DNA from: Selaginella tamariscina
Taxonomy: Eukaryota; Streptophyta; Lycopodiopsida; Selaginellales; Selaginellaceae
Assembly: GCA_003024785.1 (NCBI GenBank)
Contig: PUQB01000079.1
Coordinates: 310,001-374,000, forward strand
Reading direction: 5' to 3'
DNA length: 64,000 bases
A program made the translations under genes and the position numbers. Positions 16,001 through 19,192 of the stretch are shown here, piece after piece. Numbering within the stretch: the stretch's first letter is position 1; each line of letters opens with the position of its first letter. The notes below the pieces were generated by a model, which did no database searches, was not told the DNA's origin, and saw nothing but the letters and a program-made list of their open reading frames with translations.

Positions 16001-16814
16001 CATAACACTCTCTCTCTCATACAATGGATTGCTAGTTACCAACCCGTCGACATCCCCAGACCATTTGTTCATAGGACCTGATGGTAAACAAGCTTCTGTA
16101 AGCTATGCAACTACAATGGACATGGCTATCATTCAAGTGCCACGCTTTCTGCCTCTGAAGTAAGTTTACACGTGTGTGTGCGCGCGTGCGTCCGGGCGTG
16201 CGTGTGTGTAAGTTCTCTTTTATGCAGACTGTGAATTTACAACTAACTTAACCATACACAAAGTCCAGTCCAGATTAGTAAAAACGGCCTCATTATGGAA
16301 TGGGTAAACTTAGGGTCGATTCGCACCTGCACTTATACTTAGAGATAAGGGTCAAAAGTGCACTTAAATTGCTTCGCATGTATTTAGGAGATAAGGGTGG
16401 CCATTAAGTTAAATTTTAAGTGTGAAAAATTTAAAGTTGTTTACTCCGCACCTATTTTAAATTTAATGGTAACCCTTAAAATTTAAGTGTTTCAGAAAGA
16501 AAAAAATCAAAATTTAAAACCACCTCGTGATATTAAATTTTAAGGGGCACTTATAAATTATTTCAAAAAGATTCTTGTGAAGATTCTTTAAGGGCTAGGT
16601 TTATGGTTCGCGGCAGCCAGATTTTGGCCTGCCCCGCGGGCGGGTCGGGGATTCGGGGTGCGAAGAACGGTCCCCCGGGGCGGCTAATCGAACCCACCGG
16701 CGCTTGATCGGCTGATGTTAGGGGTGGCAATTGCAGAGGACCGCGCCGTCTCCTCCTACCCGCTCGCTTATTTATATTGGGATTTTTTTATACACTCCAA
16801 TGCGGTATAGGACG

Positions 16815-17094
16815 AGCCGGGATTCAACTTGTTCGATCCTCCACGCGGAATACTGCTATGCTTCCTTCAATGGGATGGGTTGCTTTGAGATTCAAGGCAG
16901 AGAATCCAGGTGTGTGCGTGTGCGTGCGCGTGTGTGTTGGAATGTAATAAGCTTTGCTGCTCTCAGGCGTTTGGTTATTTCATTGTCACTTGGAAGGACA
17001 TGCTACCTGGGGAATGCAGACGACTTTCATTGTTCAGAATGGGAAGAAACCCGGCCAAACGTTTCCCCCACCGAAGGATCTTCCAAAATGCTAA
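16815..17094 (+). pseudogene. Ascorbate-oxidase-like multicopper oxidase C-terminus inside the transposon
   Basis: Two exons flank a 57-base intron (16910-16966) that begins with (GT)n. The first reads FNLFDPP, then, after a one-base frame change, MLPSMGWVALRFKAENP. The second reads [17 protein letters not shown] then PPPKDLPKC and a stop at 17092-17094. The HCHxExH...M pattern is the type 1 and type 3 copper ligand motif at the C-terminus of plant ascorbate oxidases and SKU5-like proteins; the PPKDLPKC end favours an ascorbate-oxidase-like parent. These enzymes work in the cell wall. Only the last domain is present, so it is a captured fragment. The second exon is intact. Confidence 0.82.
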
Positions 17095-17654
17095 GCATAA
17101 ACAAACACTATCTACCAGAATTGGAAACGTTTTGGTAGGAATATATGTATATTGGTAGGAAAAGTTATATGTATATGTATTCATGTATATAAAGAGAACC
17201 TGCACGAACCAATGTTTATTCGGCCACCATCAAGACTTGTCACGCAATATTAAATCCTTCTTGCCAGTAGATTCTGCAGGCACACGTACATCTTCCAAAA
17301 TTACCTGGACTATATATATAAATATATAGAGTATGTTTGTCTGTATCATCTCTCTCTCTCTCTCTCTCTCTTGTGTGTGTGTGCGTGCCTGCATGTAGCA
17401 AGTAAATATATGAACTGTGTCTGTTATTATGACAATATACCAGTTGTTGGTTGAGAACGCCATCCCAACTTATTTTCAGGCCGACCAAATGAAAGTCCAT
17501 GTGTACCCTGTCCCACTTTCTTCTTTGCTCGTCGTTTCCGTATCTACAACAACACAATATGTGGCATGTGTACGTATGTGCATACATATACACACATAAC
17601 ATACATAAACATACTTGTCAATTAAAGAAGAACACATGTTATGAATGGTGAGAT

Positions 17655-17815
17655 AAGCAGTTGTGCTTATATCACCATATGCCGGTGTCTCCATCGGGAC
17701 ATACGAGCTTCGGTATGCTGTGTGCAGATGCAGATACTACCTTGATTTTCATATTGTTTTGCACTCCATATGCTACTGCATTTACAAGCTCCTCTTCTGT
17801 ACTTGGAAATAGTAC
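17655..17815 (-). pseudogene. L-gulonolactone oxidase-like fragment inside the transposon
   Basis: The minus strand reads FPSTEEELVNAVAYGV, then KIKVVSASAHSIPKLVCPDG, then, after a small frame change, ISTTAYLTI. This matches the start of the FAD-binding domain of plant GULLO proteins (PTTEAELV, then RYSHSIPKLVC and LISTKFL in Arabidopsis, as I recall). GULLO-type enzymes oxidise L-gulono-1,4-lactone to ascorbate. Only about 50 codons are present. The piece lies opposite in strand to the ascorbate-oxidase fragment. Regions 17220-17320 and 17440-17530 may be further captured pieces that I cannot name. Confidence 0.75.
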
Positions 17816-19192
17816 GTGGTAGTATATTGTGCATGTGTGCGCATGCGTGCGTGCCTGTGTGATGATACCCATGAGATATGCATGCCAACTGTGTTATATA
17901 ATGAATATGCCAGTGTTTTGAAGTCATAAATGCAACCATTGAATTGTTTAGCTGTCTATTTCATTCTCATGGAACAATATGCAATGCTGAAGATCAGGGT
18001 GTCAGAGGAAGAGCAGGGCACTGATCAGGGCGGCAATCAAGCAAGCGGGGAGGAGGAGATGACGCGAACTCTAGGCCTCAATCGAGGCCGAGGCGGACTC
18101 GGTGCTGGAGGTGGAGCTCGGGGCCCAAGTTTAGGCGTGCCAATCCGGGAGCTCCACAAGCTCCACGCGGGAATCCCGCACCTCCACGAGCTCCTGGAGC
18201 TGGCGTGTGAATCCCATGGCGCGAAGCTGGGTGTGGCAACCCTGAACCACCAGCCGCCAACTCCTCTCTTCTCCGAATTTGAATTTGAATTTGAAAATTT
18301 TTGAATTTTAAGTAAAATTTAAAGGTGAAAACATATTCGGAGATGAAAACATTAACAAAATTTAAGTGTTTTATGTACGAAGAGACACGCATTTAAGATT
18401 AAAATTTGAGGACAAATTCGCTATCATGTGCGAACAAACAAGTCTTAAAATGTGTAATTAAATTGCAAAAATCACTTTAAATTTTTATGTGCGAATATAC
18501 AAACCGTTAACTTTTTAACTGTTAGCACTTCAAATTTTTAAGTATGCAAGTGCAAATCGACCCTTATGAAGTTAAAATTTAAGTAATTAATCAAACTAAA
18601 GTATTTAAGTTGTAGTTATTATATCTATTTATTTTATTCGCAGGCAAAGGAGTTTAAGGATCCAGATGTTAATCACAGGCATATGTCACATTTGTTTGGG
18701 CTCTTCCCAGGCCACACAATCAATACAGAAAACACTCCTGAGTTATGTCAAGCAGCAGGTATACATAATATCATTGGGTGTGTGTGAGTGCGTGTGCGTG
18801 CGTGTGTGTATGCACATCAAATCAATATAGACATGAGCATCAGCAGGTACGGTCATGTCATGCGTATGTATGTGTAAGATGAATATGGATATGTATGTGT
18901 GTGTGTGTGTGATGTTCGGAACGTGTAAAATGTGGTGTTAAGTGTATATTCTCTCCCCCTCTTTGCTATATCTTTTAATTAAAGTCTGACTTAATTCTTT
19001 AGAAAAATGTTATAATACATTGAACTATAAAATTCAAAATAATATTATGCAAAGTTTTCAGTTTTAAATTTATGATAATGGATTTTGATGATATAAAATT
19101 AAGTAATAAATTTTAATCAATTTTTTTTAATATTAGATATAGCGCAAAACATTAACATCTGTAATATGTTGAAAACTACACGGATTATTCCA

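Follow-up and report, generated by a model that had tools for sequence, protein, structure and literature searches.

The grapevine PIF elements named Pifvine-3 have, in the part of their description used here, a 5′ region of up to 3.5 kb that lies outside ORF1 and the transposase and contains transduplicated exons and introns, and in some cases this cargo is common to multiple copies (PLoS One, 2008; PMC2528002). Pack-TYPE Harbinger-PIF elements are known in rice and maize, according to the sections of the paper cited here (Gisby and Catoni, 2022; PMC8903248). A 2026 review, in the portion on which we draw, states that unlinked captures might have an undiscovered mechanism (PMC13317346). Our literature search found no report joining three of Harbinger, gulonolactone oxidase, laccase and gene capture.

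We analyzed a stretch of 64,000 nucleotides from Selaginella tamariscina (C1159:310001–374000, hereafter the window) and searched the genome from which it comes (G000; 300.7 Mb, 1,391 contigs; C and L numbers denote contigs and loci). We put at about 0.85 the probability that an element within the window is, as its sequence suggests, a non-autonomous, internally deleted PIF/Harbinger Pack-type transposon whose ancestors took up host DNA in nested steps and later underwent deletions. Compared with Pifvine-3 as described in that part of PMC2528002, the Selaginella family is likewise of PIF type with ORF1, a transposase and a 5′ cargo of exons and introns, but here the cargo is nested and drawn from three genes plus a fourth locus, copies with empty sites order the steps, and the target-site duplications (TSDs) are less strictly TTA/TAA. 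The window copy resembles the Pack-TYPE Harbinger-PIF elements in the cited sections of PMC8903248 in being a non-autonomous TIR element with host coding fragments, and differs in that copies with ORF1 and transposase carry the same fragments. At least the later captures would thus predate the loss of transposase from the group to which the window copy belongs. 5′ cargo in PIF elements is already published, for grapevine; the value of the present family lies in internal captures that can be read as a series.

Structure and intronic setting of the window element

The element is a complete TIR transposon of 2,251 bp with TTA on either flank, as read from the sequence, and its exact ends, TIRs and TTA/TTA duplication confirm the TIR element that an earlier note on this DNA had placed at 16313–18563. 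It shows the features of a Pack-TYPE element, namely TIRs, a TSD, no transposase and fragments of host coding sequence. Its parts, in window coordinates, are as follows.

16310–16312, no strand: left TSD, TTA (from flank letters and the ends of copies)
16313–16331, +: left terminal inverted repeat, GGGTCGATTCGCACCTGCA (end comparison)
16313–16628, +: family core, left end, element positions 1–316 (also present in copies free of gene fragments, among them L034 and L038)
16629–16699, no strand: 71-bp insert (site empty in L014; alignments of L015, L018, L019, L020 and L021 lack it)
16767–16799, −: gulonolactone-oxidase-like sliver, putative far end of the first capture (L063 415–448)
16794–17143, +: C-terminal exons assigned to laccase, with intron, stop and 3′ flank
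17164–17515, −: acyl-CoA dehydrogenase (isobutyryl-CoA-dehydrogenase-like) piece 1 (putative donor on C441, L037)
17513–17691, −: acyl-CoA dehydrogenase piece 2 (adjoins piece 1 where, by comparison with L018, internal sequence is deleted)
17681–17995, −: gulonolactone-oxidase-like gene (TIGR01677), intron 1 with the beginning of exon 2 (putative donor on C1015, L063 1868–2191)
18003–18277, +: family core, upstream of ORF1 in L014 and L018
18270–18290, no strand: deletion scar, at which ORF1 (Myb/SANT) and transposase are missing (about 2.7 kb in L014)
18282–18563, +: family core, right end
18545–18563, −: right terminal inverted repeat
18564–18566, no strand: right TSD, TTA
16304–18643, +: putative intron of a GH95-type gene, holding the element (splice sites by eye; PF22124 matches on both sides)

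The earlier note had listed two host-gene pieces and had allowed that protein searches might match neither to an oxidase or might place one outside the element. Both pieces are real: profile searches match a multicopper-oxidase C terminus on the + strand and an L-gulonolactone-oxidase-like FAD domain on the − strand, and both lie inside the element. The inventory was incomplete, having missed the acyl-CoA dehydrogenase DNA at 17164–17691, the sliver at 16767–16799 and the insert at 16629–16699. This insert is GC-rich, is present in the window group and is absent from L014; a search for its origin returned six hits, five in family copies and one partial (C566:56694–56746), and no clear outside source.

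In a profile search, matches to the GH95 domain (PF22124) flank the element on both sides. Read by eye, the putative intron has its donor GT at 16304 and its acceptor AG at 18642–18643, which puts the start of the element 9 nt beyond the first base of the intron; the intron would measure about 86 bp without the element. Relative to this + strand gene the laccase piece has sense orientation, and both remaining pieces have antisense orientation. The opposite orientation reported earlier is borne out, but a transcript of the GH95-type gene would include two antisense pieces beside the sense one, not a single antisense piece.

Relatives place the family in PIF/Harbinger

A genome search for the TIR and the parent genes, which the earlier note had proposed, recovered relatives of the element and candidate donors. 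The family has at least 115 matches (40 of 149 candidates were scored), and TIRs with matching 3-bp duplications were found in 20 of the 24 copies compared, the other four (L036, L041, L022 and L023) having no matching 3-mer. The duplication is TTA in the window and ATA, TTT, AAT, TAT, TAA, TCT, TCA, ATT or GTT elsewhere; its length is that of PIF/Harbinger elements, and the AT-rich 3-mers are looser than the classical TTA/TAA. L022 and L023 are neighbors: one of the two adjoining copies, of about 1 kb, is free of gene fragments, and the other bears gulonolactone-oxidase-like DNA.

One relative, L014 (C480; 5,057 bp, TSD TTT), holds all three pieces together with a Myb/SANT ORF1 and DDE_Tnp_4. 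Its left core is followed by the gulonolactone-oxidase sliver, then by laccase, acyl-CoA dehydrogenase, gulonolactone oxidase, core, ORF1, transposase and right end. PF13359 matches L014 in three frames, at profile positions 48–95 (27.3 bits) and 101–158 (44.0 bits; cut-off 24.8) and, below the cut-off, at 16–52 (19.6 bits). L053 matches HTH_Tnp_4 and DDE_Tnp_4, both below cut-off, and the Myb/SANT profile PF13837 scores 33.1 bits in L018 (cut-off 27) and 25.7 bits, below cut-off, in L014. The relatives have a DDE_Tnp_4-type transposase and a second ORF with a Myb/SANT-like domain, and by these sequence characters the family is PIF/Harbinger. In L014 and L018/L053 the ORF1 and transposase sequences are broken up among several frames, possibly through assembly indels.

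L019 (C1380; about 5.35 kb, TSD AAT) has the plan of L014 with two pieces, laccase being absent, and its ORF1/transposase part is known through a DNA match to L018/L053. ORF1/transposase sequence is present in six of the fetched cargo copies (L014, L015, L018, L019, L020 and L021). Both ends and a matched duplication are present in two of these six (L014 and L019); L018 has its right end and is missing the first bases of its left TIR, and for L015, L020 and L021 the left portions were compared, covering only the first 0.1–0.5 kb of the L053 transposase stretch.

Compared with L014, the window copy is missing ORF1 and transposase and contains the 71-bp insert, and at the window scar the sequence just upstream of the L014 ORF1 ATG joins the right-end core directly. 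The laccase/acyl-CoA-dehydrogenase junction of the window is identical in L015 and different in L014, which also retains part of a fourth-locus patch (described below), and for these reasons L014 is, judged by structure, not the direct parent of the window copy.

Among 32 tabulated copies (L033, L042 and L064, partly matching or partly fetched, were left out), laccase DNA is present in nine, which represent seven insertion sites after two same-flank pairs are merged. Six of the nine, at four sites, are without transposase (the window copy and L009–L013), and these group as a single clade in the core tree (support 0.91, midpoint root). C1055 has the insertion of the window copy too, within identical flanks, as a haplotype or duplicate copy; seven locus pairs share flanks, including window/L009 and L012/L013, indicating that haplotype or duplicate contigs are present in the assembly. 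Single-base events account for 36 of 43 indels between L012 and L013 and for 15 of 38 between the window copy and L009. Because such indels are numerous between paired copies, frameshifts are weak evidence of decay.

Identity and donors of the captured DNA

The earlier note had called the + strand piece ascorbate-oxidase-like. Laccase outscores that assignment: the 54-residue + strand fragment, spliced by hand, scores 87.2 bits with the plant laccase model TIGR03389, its best family match, and 46.0 bits with plant L-ascorbate oxidase (TIGR03388). The laccase match covers profile positions 485–539 of 539, thereby reaching the C terminus of the profile, and being that of a fragment it lies far under the whole-protein cut-off. 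A 47-residue unspliced frame in the window gives 59.5 bits for laccase and 22.2 for the higher-scoring of two ascorbate-oxidase models. The ORF of the related gene L031 gives 337.5 and 135.8 bits for laccase and ascorbate oxidase, respectively; in PDB the best match of this ORF is maize laccase (6klg, 2e-66), with ascorbate oxidase (1aoz) at 2e-19. On the NCBIfam and PDB scores we reject ascorbate oxidase, and by profile score the + piece is laccase C-terminal sequence. Its nearest donor among three related genes compared is L029 (C1093:168 kb), with 95% identity over 16794–17093. The other two, L030, with which the stretch on to 17143 aligns, and L031, are more distant and were rejected as donors. 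The reading frames of L029 are broken in several places, and the true donor may therefore be an allele or a close relative.

The − strand piece at 17681–17995 is confirmed by profile as gulonolactone-oxidase-like, with a putative role of the enzyme in ascorbate synthesis. Its best family match is the gulonolactone-oxidase-like FAD oxidoreductase model TIGR01677, at 47.2 bits for the fragment and 236.9 bits for the donor ORF, both under the whole-protein cut-off of 383.1. In the donor (L063, C1015) exons read by eye flank the captured stretch (415–2191) on both sides.

The third and larger piece, 17164–17691 on the − strand, is by sequence similarity an acyl-CoA dehydrogenase of branched-chain, isobutyryl-CoA-dehydrogenase-like type: the best PDB chain for the C-terminal exons of its donor, L037 (C441), is human-type ACAD8 (1rx0, 5.8e-22). 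L037 has N-terminal exons beyond the captured part, and the 5.5 kb compared matched neither the family core nor the other cargo. Another candidate, C548:205 kb (L064), ends in the right terminus of the family and is itself an element, and on these grounds we rejected it as the donor.

The best blastn E values of donor against element are 7e-137 for laccase, 4e-85 for the gulonolactone-oxidase-like gene and 3e-143 for acyl-CoA dehydrogenase; reversed decoys of the three donors gave no hits at E 1e-3. The donor genes extend past the captured segments, and the introns carried along indicate capture from DNA. The nearest donors found lie on three separate contigs, C1015, C441 and C1093, each of 0.50–0.75 Mb.

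A fourth locus contributed to some copies. In L018 a 77-bp exon-like patch (L018:2183–2259) adjoins the laccase piece; it is 98.7% identical to C455:262739–262815 and also matches C1251:847–923. The C455 locus (L065) had no match in NCBIfam, Pfam or PDB; its gene may resemble an acyl-CoA thioesterase.

Divergence from the donors

For intron and exon together, the gulonolactone-oxidase-like DNA differs from its donor by a K2P distance of 0.10–0.18 (15 of 15 copies). The laccase DNA differs by 0.024–0.058 (K2P; seven copies) and the main acyl-CoA dehydrogenase pieces by 0–0.053 (uncorrected, leaving out five microsatellite-like rows). The gulonolactone-oxidase-like exon by itself diverges by 0.036–0.075, which overlaps the laccase range. 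These distances fit the gulonolactone-oxidase capture as the oldest when intron and exon are taken together, but not when the exon is taken by itself; they leave the ages of the laccase and acyl-CoA dehydrogenase captures unseparated. For the longest gulonolactone-oxidase-like exon, dN/dS is 0.52–1.48 across all 10 of the element-copy pairs and 0.39–0.64 against the donor; the among-copy values, roughly neutral on few sites, led us to reject a protein function for this piece, and the donor values count against the reading preferred below.

Empty sites order the captures

Five of five mapped copies that lack the other two pieces have the gulonolactone-oxidase-like piece uninterrupted (L022, L024, L035, L043 and L044, the last two of which may represent one site). 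The acyl-CoA dehydrogenase DNA is joined to it at L063 position ~1046 in L025, L028 and L064; in L021 the right junction of the acyl-CoA dehydrogenase DNA lies near L063 1854, and in L016, L018, L019, L020 and L021 the gulonolactone-oxidase stretch from 743 to the acyl-CoA dehydrogenase junction has been lost. The laccase site, in turn, is uninterrupted in all six mapped copies that have acyl-CoA dehydrogenase DNA, keep the site and lack laccase (L016, L019, L020, L021, L025 and L028), and was also read letter by letter in L019 and L020. In L018 the laccase DNA and the 77-bp patch separate bases that adjoin each other in L020, and no loss is visible there. One further deletion inside the acyl-CoA dehydrogenase DNA is common to L014, L015 and the window group, and the loss of ORF1 and transposase from the window group is the last ordered step.

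Comparison of the copies shows an order of acquisition, as far as extant sequences record it, of gulonolactone oxidase, then acyl-CoA dehydrogenase inside it, then laccase with 77 bp of the fourth locus inside that. The earlier suggestion of a captured gene cluster finds no support in these separate, nested acquisitions or in the nearest donors found, which lie on three contigs.

A model for nested capture, and alternatives

Comparison of the copies shows that the capture region lies between the left TIR and ORF1 and that it took up host DNA with introns included. About 1.78 kb of the gulonolactone-oxidase-like gene was taken up first, acyl-CoA dehydrogenase DNA then replaced the middle of this piece, and laccase DNA with 77 bp of the fourth locus entered the remainder; later deletions trimmed the cargo and removed ORF1 and transposase. 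The window copy would be mobile only with transposase supplied by relatives, and the cargo fragments are probably without protein function. The mechanism may have been a patchwork repair, with copying from unlinked loci, of breaks or gaps within the element. We give somewhat less than even odds to repeated repair of this kind in one internal region, each capture inside the previous one and at least the later ones in copies with ORF1 and transposase, with the family as a record of the capture route.

The five copies that have only gulonolactone-oxidase cargo bear on where the series began. Core and cargo cover their entire length, leaving no room for a transposase, so the first capture need not have taken place in a transposase-bearing element. 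Captures might instead have occurred in non-autonomous copies and spread to transposase-bearing copies by gene conversion, which would also suit the imperfect match between cargo and core histories: L014, L015 and L018 are not grouped together in the core tree (mostly modest supports), and either their cargo may have moved by conversion or the tree may be unresolved. We consider this route unlikely, if the least so of the alternatives, since acyl-CoA dehydrogenase and laccase cargo are both found in the ORF1/transposase copies (L014, L015, L018, L019, L020 and L021), relative to which the absence of both ORFs from the window group is a derived state.

Slightly less likely is the route that PMC13317346, in the portion cited, gives for Pack-type TIR elements on the Pack-CACTA model, in which aberrant excision of two nearby copies fuses them around the host DNA that separates them. 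Host DNA is taken up between TIRs in both cases, and the adjacent L022 copies show that family members can be neighbors. The Selaginella cargo, however, consists of internal nested patchwork insertions and not of DNA between fused neighbors: laccase lies between the two halves of a single gulonolactone-oxidase-like stretch from which nothing is visibly lost, a fourth-locus patch accompanies it, and two neighbors truncated at the same internal point are improbable. Fusion of neighbors could still explain the first capture.

It is improbable that the element serves as a source of antisense or small RNAs against the donors, transcribed with the GH95-type gene. The mixed orientation of the pieces and the existence of several dispersed copies would suit such a role, but intronic RNA is normally degraded and the sequence analysis gave no pointer to a role in RNA. 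Selective gathering of ascorbate-pathway genes, or capture of a cluster of them, acting on ascorbate through RNA or protein, is very improbable, for although one piece is gulonolactone-oxidase-like and the pieces are oppositely oriented, the other oxidase is a laccase, the third piece is a branched-chain-type acyl-CoA dehydrogenase (so that the ascorbate pairing proposed earlier does not hold), and the captures were separate and nested, with the nearest donors found on different contigs.

Nested capture with later deletion thus remains our preferred reading. The family is a gene-capture series ordered by structure, and it bears on the route discussed in the cited portion of PMC13317346. Copies with empty sites, an insertion within the element that cost no visible sequence, and an insert compounded of DNA from two loci are of a kind that can discriminate between models of capture. 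If the patchwork-repair reading is true, the family would be a natural record of the route by which unlinked gene fragments are captured.
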